Below are positions 44,148-52,494 of a stretch of DNA of 64,000 nt, piece by piece. The notes under the pieces were generated by a model. It was not told where the DNA came from and ran no database searches. It worked only from the letters and a program-made list of their open reading frames with translations. The stretch covers positions 1 through 64,000 of the forward strand of contig CALMZQ010000221.1 in the NCBI GenBank assembly GCA_937870915.1. Reading direction: 5' to 3'. Origin of the DNA: an uncultured Ignavibacteria bacterium. GTDB lineage: Bacteria; Bacteroidota; Ignavibacteria; Kapaibacteriales; Kapaibacteriaceae. The position numbers were made by a program, and so were the translations under genes. Every line of letters starts with the position of its first letter. Position 1 is the stretch's first letter.

Positions 44148-45083
44148 CTACTTTTTCACTGTACTCGAATCCAATATCGAGGTAGCGATGTATTCAGGAA
44201 TCAAGCCGGGTATGCCTTCCTTACGGCTAGTAGTTTCAAAGGTCTTCATATACCCCTTTTTTACATACCGTTGCATAATGGACGTGGCAATGGAATGTAC
44301 ACCATAGACCGGGTGGCGCTCCATCCGAACCGTCATATGAGCAACCTCATCGTCACCACTACCAGAAAGTGAGTCTATGGTGACTGCTCGAATGATTGTA
44401 TCCTGGTTCAAGCGTGGTTGTTTCTCTGATTCTGACCCAGTTGTATGACCGATCTTTTGGATCGTCGATGTGATCAAAAGGGTGTCTACATATGCCGTAC
44501 CAATAATGAACGAATTTGATTCGCGTAGATATGGGGCCAAAAGCGCATACTCCGTAGGTATGGTAGAGAGTACTTGCGTCATTGCATCGGAGTCTGTTAT
44601 GCGCGGCAGAACTGTCCCCATGGTGATCGTTTCTGGAGTTGTAGACTCGAACTGTGCGTTAGTAAACATAACCCTGCCATACGCGTCGAGGGTGGCTTCG
44701 TATCTAGGAATTGTAAATGCAAGGCGTACACCAATGATCTTCAATTCTCTAGACTTTGTCATAAAGAGCGTATCGGATGATATCAATTCACCAGCCGATC
44801 TCATTTGAACAGATACGCGTGAATTGCCAGCCTCATCTCGGTCAAGAATTGTAATCGTATACGTGGCAGGTATACATACCCCTCTACCGTTCACAACGTG
44901 CTGATCAACTCTGAGCCGGTAGGTCAGAACCCTGCCAGGCACCAATTCCGTGTATGCTTTGTCATTGAGTATCCCTGGCCCCACACGAACATCCGGACCA
45001 TTGTCTCCATTCTGACCTCGACTCACATTGGCAGAAAGAATGAAGACGCACAAAACAAATGGTAAAGAGACGGTCTTGATCAT
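44148..45083 (-). CDS. Secreted protein, four-member paralog family, member 2
   Basis: Signal peptide; VLTYRLRVDQHVVNGRGVCIPATYTITILDRDEAGNSRVSVQMRS. Confidence 0.75.
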   Translation of the reverse strand: MIKTVSLPFVLCVFILSANVSRGQNGDNGPDVRVGPGILNDKAYTELVPGRVLTYRLRVDQHVVNGRGVCIPATYTITILDRDEAGNSRVSVQMRSAGELISSDTLFMTKSRELKIIGVRLAFTIPRYEATLDAYGRVMFTNAQFESTTPETITMGTVLPRITDSDAMTQVLSTIPTEYALLAPYLRESNSFIIGTAYVDTLLITSTIQKIGHTTGSESEKQPRLNQDTIIRAVTIDSLSGSGDDEVAHMTVRMERHPVYGVHSIATSIMQRYVKKGYMKTFETTSRKEGIPGLIPEYIATSILDSSTVKK

Positions 45084-45205
45084 GGCATCACCTCAGAGTA
45101 GATGGTTTGACGACGTCAGATCAGCTATCACGAACTTCTACACAAGAACAGTAGTGTGGTAATGTTCGGGTGTACGAGTGCCGTAAGTAATATAGCGTAT
45201 GAAAC

Positions 45206-46138
45206 TCACCTATCCATCGTACTCGTATCGAGAATGGAGGTTGCGATGTATTCAGGAATGGGGCTGGTAGATCCCACCTTCCTACTGGTGGTAACAAAGG
45301 ACTTCATATAGCCCTTTTTTATGTAGCGTTCCATAACCGAGATCGCAACCGAAGGCATTCCGTAAACAGGGTAACGCTCCATACGAACGGTCATATGTGC
45401 GAGCTCATCGTTACCACTTCCAGAGACTGAATCGATCGTCACCGTTCGAATGATAGTATCCTGAGCCTCTTTCGGCTGGGGCCTTGTCTCGGTTCCTATA
45501 GTTCTGCCAATCTTTTGGATTGCAGAGGTAAATAGTATTGTGTCTTTATACGGTCTTCCTACGAGAATGGAGGTTGCCCCTTGTAGATACGGTGCCATGA
45601 GGGCGTATTCTGTTGGGATAGTGGAAAGGACGTTTGCCATTGCATCCGAGTCCGTTATCCGAGACTCAACGTTACCCATCGTACTTGATTCTTGGGACAT
45701 TGCGTCTAATTGTTCATTTGTATATAGAACCCTGCCATTTACGTCCAAGGTTGCTTCATACTTGGGAATTGCAAAAGCAAGGCGCACCCCAACGATCTTC
45801 ATCACCGTTGACTTTGAGAGAAAGATCGTGTCAGACGCAATGAGCTCGCCTGCGGATCGCATTTCAACTGAAACACGTGAGTTGCCAGCAGCATCTCTAT
45901 CGAGTATTGCTATCGAATATATAGCTGGTATACATACGCCTCTTCCATGTACAACATGTTGGTCAACCCTGAGTTTATACGTTAGGACTCTACCAGGAGT
46001 AAGCTCTGTGTATGCCTTGTCGTTGAGAACTTCAGGCCCTACCTGAATAATCGGTGTATCGCTGGTGTCTTGCCCCTTACTCACGCCAATTGAGATAAAG
46101 ATCAAACAGAAATGGACCGTCAAGGCAAGTAGTTTCAT
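45206..46138 (-). CDS. Secreted protein, four-member paralog family, member 3
   Basis: Signal peptide; VLTYKLRVDQHVVHGRGVCIPAIYSIAILDRDAAGNSRVSVEMRS. Confidence 0.75.
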   Translation of the reverse strand: MKLLALTVHFCLIFISIGVSKGQDTSDTPIIQVGPEVLNDKAYTELTPGRVLTYKLRVDQHVVHGRGVCIPAIYSIAILDRDAAGNSRVSVEMRSAGELIASDTIFLSKSTVMKIVGVRLAFAIPKYEATLDVNGRVLYTNEQLDAMSQESSTMGNVESRITDSDAMANVLSTIPTEYALMAPYLQGATSILVGRPYKDTILFTSAIQKIGRTIGTETRPQPKEAQDTIIRTVTIDSVSGSGNDELAHMTVRMERYPVYGMPSVAISVMERYIKKGYMKSFVTTSRKVGSTSPIPEYIATSILDTSTMDR

Positions 46139-46275
46139 TACGTTTACTCGAGTCAGATGCCGACAGTAAGCAAAACTACTTACTTCCGTTCTACGCGAGA
46201 AGGTACTTTATAGTTTCCTCCAATTCTATTTCTGGTGAAATACTTTAAAAAGAACTCTCTTTGAGCCGTTTAAGG

Positions 46276-47205
46276 CTATTTGGTGTCTTCTAAGGAATTG
46301 TTAATCCAGGAACGTTCAAGTACGGTGGTTGCCACGTAGTCCAGCCGTAAACCTTTATTCGTGACCAAGTTGTTTGTTGTTTTGAATGACTTCATATAGC
46401 CGCGGCTTACGTAGCGTTCCATGGTTGCTTGGACGATAGATTCTGCTCCGTGTGAGGAAGATCGATTCATAACAACCTTCATATACGCGATCTGGTCAGG
46501 CCCTGCACCTGAGAGCGAGTCGACACGAACTTTCCTGATCACTATATCGTGTATCTCCTTTACGCTTGAAGTGCTATCGGGGCCATATGTATGACCGATT
46601 GCTTGCATGCTCGATCGAATGGTGAGAGTATCAACATATTCTTTACCAACCTCTGTCATAAATGCCCCGTGTTGATAGGGGGCTAACAATGCTAACTCAG
46701 TAGGGAATGTTACTGCAACTGAAGAAACGGCCTCATAGTCAGTTGTGCGGGAAAGTACTGACCCCATAGTTCTTGCGGCTTCAGTGTGTCCGGGTAGTTC
46801 GTCACGTGCACGTAACAGACGGCCGAATTTGTCGAGTGTAGCTTCGTATTTCGGTGATATCCACGCCATTCGAAAACCCACGATCTTCAGTTCTCCACTT
46901 TGCGAAGCAAAGAGAGTATCAGTAGTTAAGAGCTCTCTCATTGTTCGTACTTGTACCCCAACACGAACGTTACCTGCGGCATCGCGATCTAATACCTCTA
47001 ACTGATAGACTGCCGGGATACATACACCTTTATCTTTAACCACACTTTGGTCTACCCGCAAATGATACGTAAGAACTCTGCCGGGTACGAGTTCTGATTC
47101 AGCGTTCATCTTGCTGCTGTGCGATTCCATTCGCTCAGTCTGTGCGCTCGCCTCTACTGTCAAGAACAAAGAGACGCAATGAAGAAGTACGAGAGCTTTC
47201 ATCAT
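46276..47205 (-). CDS. Secreted protein, four-member paralog family, member 4
   Basis: Signal peptide; VLTYHLRVDQSVVKDKGVCIPAVYQLEVLDRDAAGNVRVGVQVRT. Confidence 0.75.
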   Translation of the reverse strand: MMKALVLLHCVSLFLTVEASAQTERMESHSSKMNAESELVPGRVLTYHLRVDQSVVKDKGVCIPAVYQLEVLDRDAAGNVRVGVQVRTMRELLTTDTLFASQSGELKIVGFRMAWISPKYEATLDKFGRLLRARDELPGHTEAARTMGSVLSRTTDYEAVSSVAVTFPTELALLAPYQHGAFMTEVGKEYVDTLTIRSSMQAIGHTYGPDSTSSVKEIHDIVIRKVRVDSLSGAGPDQIAYMKVVMNRSSSHGAESIVQATMERYVSRGYMKSFKTTNNLVTNKGLRLDYVATTVLERSWINNSLEDTK

Positions 47206-47276: not shown

Positions 47277-47513
47277 TCAATCGAATATTCTCGATAAAAT
47301 CCAGGAGTTCTGGCCGCTTTTATAGACCTCCATTACACCGGAAGTGGTCTCGAGGAGGATATAGTCACGCATTTCATCAATACCCCACCAAGGGCCCCTA
47401 CTCGACCATGCATCGAGCACTCGTTCCACGTCGTAAGCACCCCCACGCCAGCATACAACATATGGTGTATTGTTGCGGCACCCAACATCTATCGGTTCTA
47501 GCAGGAGTTTCAT
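47277..47513 (-). CDS. DUF6504-like small protein
   Basis: IDV...CWRGGAYDVERVLDAWSSRGPWWGIDEMRDYILLETTSGVMEVYK..NSWILSRIFD pattern; overlaps the imuB stop. Confidence 0.75.
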   Translation of the reverse strand: MKLLLEPIDVGCRNNTPYVVCWRGGAYDVERVLDAWSSRGPWWGIDEMRDYILLETTSGVMEVYKSGQNSWILSRIFD

Positions 47514-48466
47514 TCATTCCCTCTGCGTTCTTGGGAATAGCCTGTAATCCGTGCATATGACTCGGGAACTATGGACCATGGATCTAGGATCTCGATACGC
47601 TTCATCACGGAGGAATAGCGTGGAATCATAGCTAAGGAGACATCTAGAGCTGTTTTCCGCTCGATGAACAGCTGTGTTTGAATAACACTTGGTTGGGTAA
47701 GTGAAGCCAGCCGTAGCCGCAGACCCCACCAGAGTCGTACTGGGCCTTGTAGATCGCGCAGTAAGGCGCGTGCATGGACCAAGATGGTATCATATGTTGT
47801 GGCACCCTGACGTAGTACTCTACTGCGCTGCGCGCACACGTCATCGGCTCTATCCAGTACTGCAAGCTCAATACGCCAGCAGAGTTTTGGTACAAGTTCT
47901 GATATCACACGAGCACAACATTCTCGCAAGGCTGAGTCTAGGACACCGGGCTCACATTGCACATCATCGAATCGCTCTGAAGAGACGATGGCAGGGGGCG
48001 GAACATAGAGTGGAAGGGGAGGAAATTCTTGTACAAGGAAGGTGTGGAGTTTACTGCCGGCCGTTCCAAACTGAACACGGAGATGACGTTCCTCCAGCTG
48101 CTGCAGGTCTCCTATGGTGCGGATACCAAAGAGCCGTAAGCGTTCTGCGTCGCGTTCATCTAAAGAGAGCTCAGGTATTCGCAGGAGCACGGAGCTAGGT
48201 ACATCCTTCGCATTTGCGTAGGCGTCCAAACGTCCTGCCGTTCCGTTGAGTGCACAGAGAAATGCACTTATTCTATCGGGTGCCAACGCAGATAATGCCT
48301 TGGTTCTACGCACGAGCTCACGAAGTCCATTCAGATCATCAGTGCCGGCAAATAGCCTACCATGCCCGGACACTACAAGAAGTGGGGTACAAGCATGTAC
48401 CCGTTCAACAACGGCATCCCATCGGGCGGAGGAGAGAGCCCCTTCCATAACAACGCAGAGAATCAT
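47510..48466 (-). CDS. imuB: Compact ImuB-like protein (Y-family polymerase homolog)
   Basis: 318 aa; LRLFGIRTIGDLQQL helix-hairpin-helix; little-finger-like C-terminal half; context with DnaE2 and DUF6504. Confidence 0.65.
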   Translation of the reverse strand: MILCVVMEGALSSARWDAVVERVHACTPLLVVSGHGRLFAGTDDLNGLRELVRRTKALSALAPDRISAFLCALNGTAGRLDAYANAKDVPSSVLLRIPELSLDERDAERLRLFGIRTIGDLQQLEERHLRVQFGTAGSKLHTFLVQEFPPLPLYVPPPAIVSSERFDDVQCEPGVLDSALRECCARVISELVPKLCWRIELAVLDRADDVCAQRSRVLRQGATTYDTILVHARALLRDLQGPVRLWWGLRLRLASLTQPSVIQTQLFIERKTALDVSLAMIPRYSSVMKRIEILDPWSIVPESYARITGYSQERRGNE

Positions 48467-48472
48467 CTGCGA

Positions 48473-48490
48473 TTCTACGAAATGTCAAAT
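48473..48490 (-). promoter_or_regulatory. Putative SOS-like box upstream of imuB
   Basis: TTCTACGAAATGTCAAAT; minus strand GACATTTCGTAGAA resembles TACATTTTGTATAT at dnaE2 and the repressor. Confidence 0.4.
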
Positions 48491-48525
48491 GAATTGACAA
48501 AGCAGATGTGGGCTGGGGGATAAGT

Positions 48526-49296
48526 TTAGAGTTTCTTGATGCAACTGCGAACCACACCAACTATCGTAAAGTCCATGTCGGCTGTGATGGCAATGTCCTT
48601 ATACCGTCTGTTTTCAGCCCGCAGAACTGGACGCCCTTCGGCCTTGATATATCGTTTAACGGTGAGTTCGCCGTAGACCTTTGCAATGACGATCTGACCA
48701 GAACGTGGCTGGATGGCACAATCAACGATAAGAGTGTCTCCATCACTGATTCCTGCGTCAGTCATTGAATCTCCCACCACCCGAATAAAATAGGTGCTTT
48801 CGGGATGTTCAAGAAGCATATCGGCCAGATCAATCTCACGCTCGATCGTGTCATCGGAAGCAGTAGGGAGGCCGGCACTAACTCCCAATGACAACATCGG
48901 AATACGTGGCCCGCGAGCCCCCTTCACTGAACGAGCAGGTGCTACAACAAGGGGCGATTGTGACTTGAGTTCGGCAATTACAGAACGAATGGCTTGCACT
49001 TGCTCTTCGAGACGGTCTAAAGCGGTTTTTGCCTCGCTGGGAATCGAGTGATGATCAGGGCCTGATGTTCCAAGTGTTGGAGAGCCGGTTCCGGTCAAGA
49101 GCCAACCGGAAGAAATCCCGTAGCGTTTTTCGAGGATGGCCAATACATCCTGGGGTACAGATGTGCGACCAGATTCCCACGAATACACGGTAGGTACCTT
49201 TACCTGCATATGCTTTGCATAGTCAGCCACAGACATCTGAAGGACAGATTCGCGGATCTGACGATGACGGGTGCCGAGCTGGATCTTGGTTTGCAT
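48526..49296 (-). CDS. XRE-family HTH plus S24 peptidase domain repressor (LexA/CI/UmuD-like)
   Basis: Start MQTKIQLGTRHRQIRES; HTH; VSAGLPTASDD cleavage-like site; VVGDSMTDAGISDGDTLIVD. Confidence 0.88.
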   Translation of the reverse strand: MQTKIQLGTRHRQIRESVLQMSVADYAKHMQVKVPTVYSWESGRTSVPQDVLAILEKRYGISSGWLLTGTGSPTLGTSGPDHHSIPSEAKTALDRLEEQVQAIRSVIAELKSQSPLVVAPARSVKGARGPRIPMLSLGVSAGLPTASDDTIEREIDLADMLLEHPESTYFIRVVGDSMTDAGISDGDTLIVDCAIQPRSGQIVIAKVYGELTVKRYIKAEGRPVLRAENRRYKDIAITADMDFTIVGVVRSCIKKL

Positions 49297-49331
49297 AGGA
49301 ATACCGTATTCAATTGTGGAAACATGTGGAC

Positions 49332-49346
49332 AATATACAAAATGTA
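49332..49346 (-). promoter_or_regulatory. Putative SOS-like box upstream of the S24 repressor
   Basis: AATATACAAAATGTA, identical to the box upstream of dnaE2. Confidence 0.5.
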
Positions 49347-49377
49347 AAGGTATTTGCATTTATTATGGAGTAGGGGG

Positions 49378-50898
49378 CTATGTGGTGGTGGACTTCTCGA
49401 CTGTTTTCAATAGGGACTCGAACATCACTTCGAAGGGGATGAGCTCATTTGTTTCAGAGGGCATGGGATCATGCGAGGAGGCAACAAGCTCCTCGTAAAT
49501 GTCCTTTGTGTTCTTGCGGATCTCGGATGGAATAAACGAGTGTTTGGGAAAACTTTGAATGAGGCGTAAGAATATCCGGACCCTATTGAAGTGCTTTTCT
49601 TTGAGATAGCGCGAGGAATAGACTCGCAGATAGTCGATCCGTTTTTCAGCCGTATCGTAGTCACCATTGATCATGAGGTAGAATACGTGAGACACTATGA
49701 TCAATACGTTATAGACCTTCTTTGACTTTGATTCTTCCGGTAGGGAATTCAGATACGTTGAAAGGCGAAACGTCTTTGCGCGACTCTGTTGCGGTGCATA
49801 CAGACCGAGCTGTTCAGCGAGCAAAAGGTAGGCGCCGTAGATGATCCAGCGCTCCCTTGTATTCTCGGAGAGCATGTTGTACTTGCGATGGGTTGTTGCC
49901 CTCGTGTAGAGGAGTTCAGCCTTTTCATAATCCTGGATATTGATAGCAGCTACAAAGGCAAGGTCAGATGCAAAGTACCAGTTGTTACCTGCTACAGTGA
50001 ATGAATCAATACACTTGTCTGAAAGGGTGAAGGCCTCACTATAGCGTCGTAGGTAGAGTGCCGCCGTCATTTTCTGAAGCATGAACTCACCGTGACGTGC
50101 TCGTTGAGACAGATGAGGAACCGAATTCAGGTATTCAATGGCACTGTCACATTCATTGATAACCCCGGAAAAATCCTCAACAAAATCGAAGTAGTTCACC
50201 GCGGCGCGGAAACTGCTCAACCGCAGGCCATGCGTATTGTGTTCCTTACGCATCGTCTCAACCTTTACCATGGCGTCTTTATGTAGGTCGATCAAATAGG
50301 ACCGTTTGCGACTCGTTACCGTCATCTCCATTTTTAAATGGTCGAGCAAAAAGTCTGCATCATATTCACATTTCAATGCGCTCATATGTCGTACCGCTTC
50401 TCGATGATGATGCAGAAACGTGGTGCGCTTGTTCCAAACGGCAGCAGATTCTCGTAACATCACTGCAAGCGAGACGCAGATATCGGTGAACTGATACTTT
50501 TGAGCAATGGTCAGAGTCTTCAACGCTATCGCATAACCAGCACGACGAGATGCAAATCGCATCAAGGTCTGAGCTGCGATCTGGTTGCGCATACATTTGT
50601 AATAGTAGCTCAGGTATTCCGAGTGCTCTGGCTGTTTTACCTGTAAAAAGAGCACGGAGTGCATCAATCGCTCGTACGTACGCGACTTTAGCGTTCGGTA
50701 ACGCTGGTCGCTAGATCCCGTTCCATAAAGATCAAGTGCGGCTTCATCATCGTTGGCATATTGATCACTGGCAATACCGATTAGATACCGCCCTGCCAGT
50801 GATGAGGCTGCCTCATCACCCTCGACGAGCTCAGGAAAGACCTTGGCTTTGTCGGATTTCGTTGTAACAATCCGCAATATTTCTTTAAGAATTTCCAT
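49378..50898 (-). CDS. Hypothetical 506-aa alpha-helical/TPR-like protein
   Basis: Long ORF with helix-rich composition; no family recognised. Confidence 0.65.
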   Translation of the reverse strand: MEILKEILRIVTTKSDKAKVFPELVEGDEAASSLAGRYLIGIASDQYANDDEAALDLYGTGSSDQRYRTLKSRTYERLMHSVLFLQVKQPEHSEYLSYYYKCMRNQIAAQTLMRFASRRAGYAIALKTLTIAQKYQFTDICVSLAVMLRESAAVWNKRTTFLHHHREAVRHMSALKCEYDADFLLDHLKMEMTVTSRKRSYLIDLHKDAMVKVETMRKEHNTHGLRLSSFRAAVNYFDFVEDFSGVINECDSAIEYLNSVPHLSQRARHGEFMLQKMTAALYLRRYSEAFTLSDKCIDSFTVAGNNWYFASDLAFVAAINIQDYEKAELLYTRATTHRKYNMLSENTRERWIIYGAYLLLAEQLGLYAPQQSRAKTFRLSTYLNSLPEESKSKKVYNVLIIVSHVFYLMINGDYDTAEKRIDYLRVYSSRYLKEKHFNRVRIFLRLIQSFPKHSFIPSEIRKNTKDIYEELVASSHDPMPSETNELIPFEVMFESLLKTVEKSTTT

Positions 50899-51080
50899 GG
50901 CAAAAACACCTAAAGTGCCTTATAGTAGGGACTTGCATTGCAACTCCAATATACAGTATTGCCAGTAATGCCCTGTAACAATTTCAATTTATTTGTAACA
51001 GAGTATCAATTCTATTCATACCATTTTCGCTCTACAGGCAACGGACCGGGGTTATACCCGTGCCGTGGTGCCTCGCGTCG

Positions 51081-51288: not shown

Positions 51289-51474
51289 ATGGAACTACTC
51301 ATCGCAATCATGTGCTTCTTCGGACTCGTTAGCTACGAGGATGCCGGTATTACGCAACCTGAGGCCAATCTTCTGTTGCAGAACAATCAGTCGACGGTCC
51401 AGTATTACTACGATAATCCGGACTCACTCGCCGTATTGCCACAACGCGTCAACATTGATAGAGCAGAAGATTAA
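51289..51474 (+). CDS. Small peptide family A, copy 1 (61 aa)
   Basis: MELLIAIMCFFGLVSYEDAGITQPEANLLLQNNQSTVQYYYDNPDSLAVLPQRVNIDRAED; paralog at 51743. Confidence 0.75.
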   Translation: MELLIAIMCFFGLVSYEDAGITQPEANLLLQNNQSTVQYYYDNPDSLAVLPQRVNIDRAED

Positions 51475-51526
51475 TGTCTGTCTGAACTAACAAATCACTT
51501 CAAAAACAATTTCAAGCGAGAACATC

Positions 51527-51580
51527 ATGCGTACAACACGCCAACACCCATACTCGATCGATCGCGGCGAAGAAAACTAA
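51527..51580 (+). CDS. Micro-ORF family B, copy 1 (17 aa)
   Basis: MRTTRQHPYSIDRGEEN; synonymous-only differences from copy 2 in the coding codons. Confidence 0.65.
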   Translation: MRTTRQHPYSIDRGEEN

Positions 51581-51609
51581 TTCAAACAACTCCTTAACAC
51601 GAGAACATC

Positions 51610-51663
51610 ATGCGCACAACACGTCAACACCCATACTCGATCGATCGCGGCGAAGAGAACTGA
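51610..51663 (+). CDS. Micro-ORF family B, copy 2 (17 aa)
   Basis: MRTTRQHPYSIDRGEEN; same GAGAACATC-ATG context as copy 1. Confidence 0.65.
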   Translation: MRTTRQHPYSIDRGEEN

Positions 51664-51742
51664 GCTGCAAAGAGTCCTCGAGTCTTTGTCGAAGTCAAGA
51701 ACAACCACAAATCAAACAACACAAAAATCGAAAGTCAACACC

Positions 51743-51931
51743 ATGGAACTCCTCATCGCAATCATGTGCTTTTTCGGAATCGTCAGCTATGAAGATGCTG
51801 GTATCAGCCAGACCGACGCGAGATACCTCCTTCAAAGCAATCAGACAACAGTTCAGTACTACTACCAGAACCCAGATGAACTAACAGGCCTCGTACCACA
51901 ACGCGCACAGATCGACCGTGCTGAAGACTGA
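51743..51931 (+). CDS. Small peptide family A, copy 2 (62 aa)
   Basis: MELLIAIMCFFGIVSYEDAGISQTDARYLLQSNQTTVQYYYQNPDELTGLVPQRAQIDRAED. Confidence 0.75.
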   Translation: MELLIAIMCFFGIVSYEDAGISQTDARYLLQSNQTTVQYYYQNPDELTGLVPQRAQIDRAED

Positions 51932-51938
51932 AGTTAGA

Positions 51939-51970
51939 GTGCTAGTGTGCTAGAATGCTAGAATGCTAGA
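51939..51970. repeat. Four tandem degenerate 8-mers (RTGCTAGW)
   Basis: GTGCTAGT GTGCTAGA ATGCTAGA ATGCTAGA. Confidence 0.85.
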
Positions 51971-52032
51971 GAAGGCGAAGCGGTCACATGAAACTCAACA
52001 CGAACAACAACAAGAACACAAAAGGAAACATC

Positions 52033-52086
52033 ATGAAAACCAACCGTCAACACCCGTACTCGATCGATCGCGGCGAAGAGAACTAA
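52033..52086 (+). CDS. Micro-ORF family B, copy 3 (17 aa)
   Basis: MKTNRQHPYSIDRGEEN with AAAGGA-AACATC-ATG ribosome-binding context. Confidence 0.65.
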   Translation: MKTNRQHPYSIDRGEEN

Positions 52087-52137
52087 GAAGTCCGTGGACT
52101 TGAACCAATATATTTTTTGAACTCAAAGGAGAACGTC

Positions 52138-52494
52138 ATGTTGCAAGCAATGCCCGTTCAGAACTGCATGCACTTCCTGATGCCGATCAGCTTGGATGAT
52201 TGGAAGTCGTATGACGTCCCCGGTGTAGTGGGAATCCTCCGCAAAGGCGAATCAGGGCAATATGAGCTAGTCGATGCCTTTGATTGTGACCAGATCCCAG
52301 GAGCCAACGAGCTCACGCTTCATGAGAAGTATGGTCAATGGTTGAATGCAGCAGGCAGCCAAGAGCTCATGCGTTTCGATGTCTTCCTCATGCCTCAGGC
52401 AAACAAGACACGCAGAAATGATGTGATTGCACTTATTGAGCGCAGCTGTGGCATTATTCTGCCTTCTAGATCAGCCTACGTGAATGCCGCATAG
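52138..52494 (+). CDS. 118-aa protein of unknown function
   Basis: ATG preceded by AAAGGAGAACGTC; the ORF-track start at 52117 is an upstream TTG. Confidence 0.75.
   Translation: MLQAMPVQNCMHFLMPISLDDWKSYDVPGVVGILRKGESGQYELVDAFDCDQIPGANELTLHEKYGQWLNAAGSQELMRFDVFLMPQANKTRRNDVIALIERSCGIILPSRSAYVNAA

Follow-up and report, generated by a model that had tools for sequence, protein, structure and literature searches.

Pairs of genes for a small peptide and for an intracellular tetratricopeptide repeat (TPR) receptor have been described as a system of Firmicutes, in a survey whose scope covered Firmicutes genomes and viruses only (PMC10075063). In these RRNPP systems, the propeptide has 10-100 amino acids (aa) and, except in the PrgQ and SHP types, a Sec export signal that SignalP recognizes; the receptor has ~250-500 aa, matches TPR models and carries a helix-turn-helix (HTH) or Rap-type N-terminal output domain; and the two genes are direct neighbours, with the mature peptide bound in the TPR groove (PMC10075063). 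These properties, namely peptide size, Sec export, receptor length, TPR models, adjacency, output domain and groove binding, together with homology, are the criteria used in our comparison (PMC10075063). Among the papers listed in our literature search, none described such a system in Bacteroidetes, Gram-negatives or Kapabacteria. Here we analyse a cluster of very small genes in a 64,000-nucleotide stretch of DNA, which we call the window (contig CALMZQ010000221.1 of the Ignavibacteria assembly GCA_937870915.1, a genome of ~3.3 Mb in 233 contigs). The cluster looks like a member of a previously undescribed family, one that resembles a type of peptide-sensing switch hitherto found mainly in Gram-positive bacteria. 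We give a probability of about one half to the reading that the cluster provides the peptides of a module with two parts, peptide and TPR receptor, which would work like Rap-Phr/RRNPP while being built from unrelated proteins. The constant partner of the peptide gene A is a TPR protein, D, and elsewhere a TPR histidine kinase. The features of the locus, which belongs to the locus family f1, are the following.

49378..50898, minus strand: D, 506 aa, predicted all-helical TPR superhelix and candidate receptor for the peptides, whose genes run divergently from it (AlphaFold2, Foldseek, adjacency to A)
50974..50998, plus strand: TGTAAC-N14-TGTAA tandem with half-sites at a 20-bp spacing, candidate operator for transcription of A, B and C (spacing conserved in f1)
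51289..51474, plus strand: A1, 61 aa, hydrophobic N-terminus, tail NIDRAED (A-family hidden Markov model, purifying selection)
51527..51580, plus strand: B1, 17 aa, one RxxPYSIDRGEEN unit (same protein as B2, with synonymous changes only; unit conserved across f1)
51610..51663, plus strand: B2, 17 aa, one RxxPYSIDRGEEN unit (substitution pattern, codon-pattern scan, alignment)
51743..51931, plus strand: A2, 62 aa, tail QIDRAED (A-family hidden Markov model, purifying selection)
52033..52086, plus strand: B3, 17 aa, one RxxPYSIDRGEEN unit (substitution pattern, codon-pattern scan, alignment)
52138..52494, plus strand: C, 118 aa, accessory, f1 only (conserved in seven f1 genomes; AlphaFold2, Foldseek)

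The six open reading frames (ORFs) that an earlier note on this DNA had listed, in the order A-B-B-A-B-C on the plus strand, are confirmed at their positions, and the A and B ORFs are protein-coding genes under selection. A1 and A2 are 75% identical, with a non-synonymous divergence (dN) of 0.17 and a saturated synonymous divergence (dS), and among the three A copies of a related genome (G003) dN is 0.05-0.11 against a dS of 0.37-1.28. Between B1 and B2, both of which encode MRTTRQHPYSIDRGEEN, all three changes are synonymous; B3 encodes MKTNRQHPYSIDRGEEN; an upstream in-frame ATG would extend B3 to 32 aa, but AGGAAACATC stands before the internal ATG. The C-terminal tail IDRxE(D/E) is common to both peptides (IDRAED in A, SIDRGEEN in B). 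The 3.3-Mb genome has three matches to the codon pattern for IDRGE-x-N, all of them in the window cluster, and none to the reversed control; over the 22 genomes scanned the pattern is confined to A/B loci except for one match in G025. Scans of the window for tRNA genes and Rfam families gave no matches, RNA structure over the B region was not above shuffled controls, and a scan of the cluster found no terminator. The earlier note had overlooked the common tail, the divergent D gene and the TGTAAC tandem that lies in the interval from D to A.

One line of evidence for our reading is the pairing of A with TPR genes. When the A model was run on 8418 ORFs of D loci, it gave 32 strong matches, all of them divergent from D except the one at L092, which lies on the same strand; nearly all are located less than ~800 nt from the start of D. 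Searched independently of D with a threshold of E <= 0.01, A was found in 45 of the 391 genomes of the class, with a few weak matches at the end of the list, and was essentially absent from the phylum sample outside the class, so the family occurs almost only in the class containing Kapabacteria. Of the 65 A loci that we inspected, 60 contain a TPR gene no more than 1 kb away, head-to-head in 57, and in the remaining five the contig ends 81-387 bp from an A; TPR and peptide genes are thus direct neighbours in 60 of 60 assessable loci. It is important to note that the 65 loci include some fetched via D and that the unbiased part consists of the 36 loci selected through A, in which every untruncated strong match has a TPR partner. 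This partner takes three unlike forms: D, which adjoins A at more than 45 loci, a distant D2, and, in the locus family f2, a TPR histidine kinase (Pfam TPR_12, HisKA and HATPase_c) that has one hydrophobic segment at its N-terminus and another, transmembrane one between the TPRs and the kinase. The common core of the system is a TPR protein plus A. The distances among A and among D proteins correlate (Mantel r 0.19, with 68 of 5000 permutations as high), as they do among the f8 paralogues (r 0.40, 38 of 5000).

The A peptides are ~57-75 aa long and acidic (net charge -1 to -15), with a hydrophobic stretch of 14-16 residues; their conservation is highest at the N-terminus and their tails vary. 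A genome may hold up to 13 A and 12 D genes. Tandem A copies were also seen at contig ends (G005:C58, G106:C87, G107:C11, G108:C56 and G109:C220); the assemblies seem to break in A arrays, and the true copy numbers are likely higher.

The D gene lies just beyond the cluster interval (51289-52494) and is transcribed divergently from it. Its family is present in 36 of the 123 genomes of the order and 56 of the 391 of the class, in at most 12 copies per genome, and none of the viral contigs encodes a close relative. The AlphaFold2 model, built from 44 relatives, has a predicted local distance difference test score (pLDDT) of 92.6 and is an all-alpha superhelix, whose Foldseek matches are TPR proteins, among them LGN, MalT domain III and the Rap-CSF complex (4gyo). 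The model supports a scaffold of the peptide-binding type and does not single out Rap. The D of the window has no Pfam match and four of the 44 relatives match TPR_2 (best E-value 4.2e-5); searched against PDB sequences, the D profile found no RRNPP receptor, only designed TPRs and similar proteins. A basic helix, RYRTLKSR, is conserved at residues 66-73. Two paralogues in one genome (G010; L075 and L076) share 72-95% identity in residues 1-160 and mostly 18-52% beyond, so that D appears to combine a constant N-terminal part with a varied TPR part, as expected of a fixed output joined to a varied sensor. The same pattern suggests gene conversion or a modular swap of the sensor part.

How does the locus compare with the described systems? 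With A of ~57-75 aa and B of 17 aa, the peptides are of RRNPP size, and adjacency holds in all the assessable pairs; D, with 506 aa in the window and mostly ~480-580 aa in complete relatives, is at or above the upper limit of receptor length and has no homology to RRNPP receptors. The likeness to Rap-Phr and PlcR-PapR comprises a small peptide gene directly beside a TPR gene, several pairs per genome, a peptide whose N-terminus is best conserved and whose tail varies, solo receptors, and the presence of Rap-CSF (4gyo) among the fold matches of D. The differences comprise the lack of sequence homology, the host (Kapabacteria, not Firmicutes), a 506-aa receptor without a recognized HTH, acidic peptides without a basic n-region, short leaderless B units, and the pairing of the A family with TPR histidine kinases as well. 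Because the RRNPP criteria apply only in part, we describe the cluster as one that would work like the RRNPP systems and do not classify it among them. The f2 loci, where A stands beside a histidine kinase, resemble the peptide-sensing two-component systems of the ComD/AgrC type, whereas the sensor in them consists of TPRs with a hydrophobic segment on either side and not of a polytopic membrane domain, and the A family also adjoins TPR proteins that are not kinases. None of A, C or D had a usable match in Pfam, NCBIfam, PHROGs or PADLOC, which bears out the opinion of the earlier note that no described family is involved; its suggestion of a peptide-based system is likewise supported, by the gene pairing and not by an assay.

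In the f1 loci, a D gene of ~506-510 aa on one strand is followed by divergent A, B and C genes, and the number of copies varies between relatives: A-B-B-A-B-A-B-C in G003, A-B-B-A-B-B-C-A-C in G012, and A-B-C in G013 and G017. The arrangement thus recurs, so that the condition by which the earlier note would have seen its finding refuted, a lack of conservation among relatives, turned out in the finding's favour, and the variation agrees with the duplication of an A+B module that had been proposed for the window. In three genomes (G018, G019 and G014) B is a single ORF with three units. Aligned across f1, the unit (for instance RQHPYSIDRGEEN) has 13 residues, RxxPY(I/L/S)IDRGE(E/N)N; many loci contain three or four units, as separate 17-aa genes or as repeats within a gene, and others one or two. 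Because both layouts occur, the product of B looks like the unit rather than the ORF. At L079, ~150-230 nt upstream of D, are two B units (PYIIDRGEGN) whose open frame lacks an ATG; neither A nor C accompanies them, and the copy is apparently decaying.

The earlier note had cast C as the partner of the peptides, which proved mostly wrong: C is an accessory gene. Its homologues occur in seven f1 genomes, the source genome included, and are limited to part of f1; the named records that carry it are metagenome-assembled genomes of Kapabacteria/Ignavibacteria, besides one labelled Bradyrhizobiaceae and one Bacteroidetes, presumably as deposited. One copy, on contig C164 of the source genome, has neither A nor B; A peptides stand without C at dozens of loci, and B without C at L078 and L088. 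The AlphaFold2 model of C, of moderate confidence (pLDDT 70), has the order strand-strand-helix-helix-strand-helix, and its top-ranked Foldseek match is the GIY-YIG domain of the UvrC N-terminus, a weak match (probability 0.96, E 0.07, template-modelling score 0.45-0.57). The topology may, with low confidence, be GIY-YIG-like; the tyrosines of the GIY and YIG motifs are not present in the alignment of C (PGVVGVL...GQYELVDAF), where neither motif has a conserved tyrosine, and nuclease activity is therefore not expected.

The region between D and the peptide operon contains a conserved element. In eight f1 loci, two TGTAA half-sites lie 20 bp apart on the same strand, against a maximum of two loci at any spacing in 300 shuffles, and TGTAACA occurs 15 times in the f1 intervals against 0.68 expected. 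Outside f1, no shared element was found in the D-A regions, and the N-terminal part of D is likewise diverged. A search of the source genome with the tandem element gave seven sites, compared with two in the reversed control. Of the five sites outside D loci, only one, on C210, precedes a gene start without coding overlap, and we do not claim a TGTAAC regulon; this extra tandem (G000:C210:5419-5443, L120) stands before the gene for a ~462-aa protein with a signal-like N-terminus. The A gene heads differing operons. At six other A loci of the same genus (L123, L124, L164, L165, L167 and L168), head-to-head with D, A is followed by genes for a Cys-rich protein of ~230 aa and for a protein of 600-800 aa that is either a propeller protein or one sorted by the type IX secretion system (Por_Secre_tail). 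Judged by N-terminal hydrophobic stretches and the Por_Secre_tail match, both proteins would be secreted, and this operon is a possible surface output of the switch.

The mechanism that we infer comprises four points, listed by falling certainty. First, A, and in f1 also or mainly B, would be the ligand, or its precursor, for the TPR groove of the neighbour's product. Second, binding of the peptide would switch the output of D, most likely at the divergent promoter through the TGTAAC tandem; the peptides would then be autoregulated, and the downstream genes (C here, the secreted Cys-rich and propeller proteins elsewhere) switched along with them. Third, B would multiply the active 13-residue unit, whether through several 17-aa genes or through tandem repetition within one gene. 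Fourth, A may reach the envelope by its hydrophobic N-terminus and either act between cells or report the state of the envelope. The TPR histidine kinase of f2 would be an alternative sensor of the A product. Somewhat below even odds, we place the wider proposal of a Gram-negative peptide network, independent of the RRNPP systems of Firmicutes, in which TPR sensors that differ in output type, D and TPR histidine kinases, would read A (and, in one family, the B unit as its amplified core), in up to a dozen pairs per genome.

Several observations weigh against this mechanism. TPR superhelices bind many types of ligand, and among the Foldseek matches of D, LGN and MalT stand higher than Rap. Library scans of the window copy and the 44 relatives matched no HTH family in D, and its binding to the TGTAAC element is suggested only by their co-location. 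The correlation between A and D distances, while above permutation, is weak. A number of D genes stand without an A in their vicinity (e.g., L075, L076, L107 and L112), and on C164 of the source genome (L005, 1757-4325) a second D+C pair lacks both A and B. At this pair, TGTAAC tandems lie between D and C; it may be an orphan receptor or a relic. The first five residues of A contain no K or R in 28 of 28 peptides, which makes a standard Sec signal unlikely. Finally, hydrophobicity suggests that the TPRs of the f2 kinase face the periplasm and D the cytoplasm, an arrangement in which the peptides would have to be active in both compartments, on either side of the membrane.

The main rival is that A serves the TPR protein constitutively, as a small subunit or as its membrane tether: the hydrophobic N-terminus of A would anchor D or dock in its groove, with no intercellular signal. 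We consider it less likely than our own reading, yet it agrees with the one-to-one head-to-head gene pairs, with the probable absence of a canonical signal peptide on A and with the fact that the best-conserved part of A is the hydrophobic N-terminus and not the tail. What it does not accommodate is the presence of tandem A and B copies per D, the multimerized 13-residue units, the tails that differ between paralogues, and B itself, which is left unexplained as it has no hydrophobic part. The remaining explanations fit worse. A and B as secreted bioactive peptides, either bacteriocin-like or ribosomally synthesized and post-translationally modified (RiPP), with D as regulator and C as immunity or processing protein, are improbable: B at L032, L035 and L078 has the look of a leader plus repeated core, with tandem 13-14-aa units in one ORF as in multi-core RiPP precursors, and secreted Cys-rich and propeller proteins are encoded downstream at other A loci, but neither a modifying enzyme nor a protease or exporter is a recurrent neighbour of the unit, B units also stand alone as leaderless 17-aa genes, and C is not tied to B, as L078 and L088 show. 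Still less probable is a toxin-antitoxin or abortive system, in which A would be a small membrane-active toxin and D or C its antidote; the short hydrophobic N-terminus of A and the many paralogues per genome would suit it, but the gene pair is divergent instead of co-transcribed, the peptides are acidic, the PADLOC models of anti-phage defence match none of A, C and D, and pairing with a sensor kinase is a poor fit. Of the functions that the earlier note had listed, the RiPP-like one is thus not supported, and for the toxin-like one we found no evidence. That these are chance ORFs within a repeat region, as their very short length and the frequent ending of relatives' contigs near A/B genes might suggest, is refuted already by the substitution pattern with its codon-level selection, as well as by cross-genus conservation and restricted location.

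If the peptide-receptor reading is true, the principle of peptide and TPR receptor would extend to a Gram-negative lineage, with a second pairing to TPR histidine kinases, and each genome would offer up to a dozen defined ligand-receptor pairs for testing. Many unannotated TPR proteins would gain a first handle, and the 13-residue B unit would be a ready candidate ligand.

With respect to the neighbourhood of D, no operon partner beyond the core is common to all loci. In the window (47510-49359, minus strand), genes for an S24/LexA-like repressor and an ImuB-like polymerase fragment adjoin D, and the same two genes stand beside D at six to seven f1 loci (L032, L075, L078, L079, L081 and L082); frequent as this pair is in f1, we take it as synteny and not as an operon partnership. 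Further along the same strand (44148-47205) are three tandem paralogues of 309-311 aa (PGRVLTYxLRVDQ...), a relative of which is found ~3 kb from D in L033 (14140-15204).
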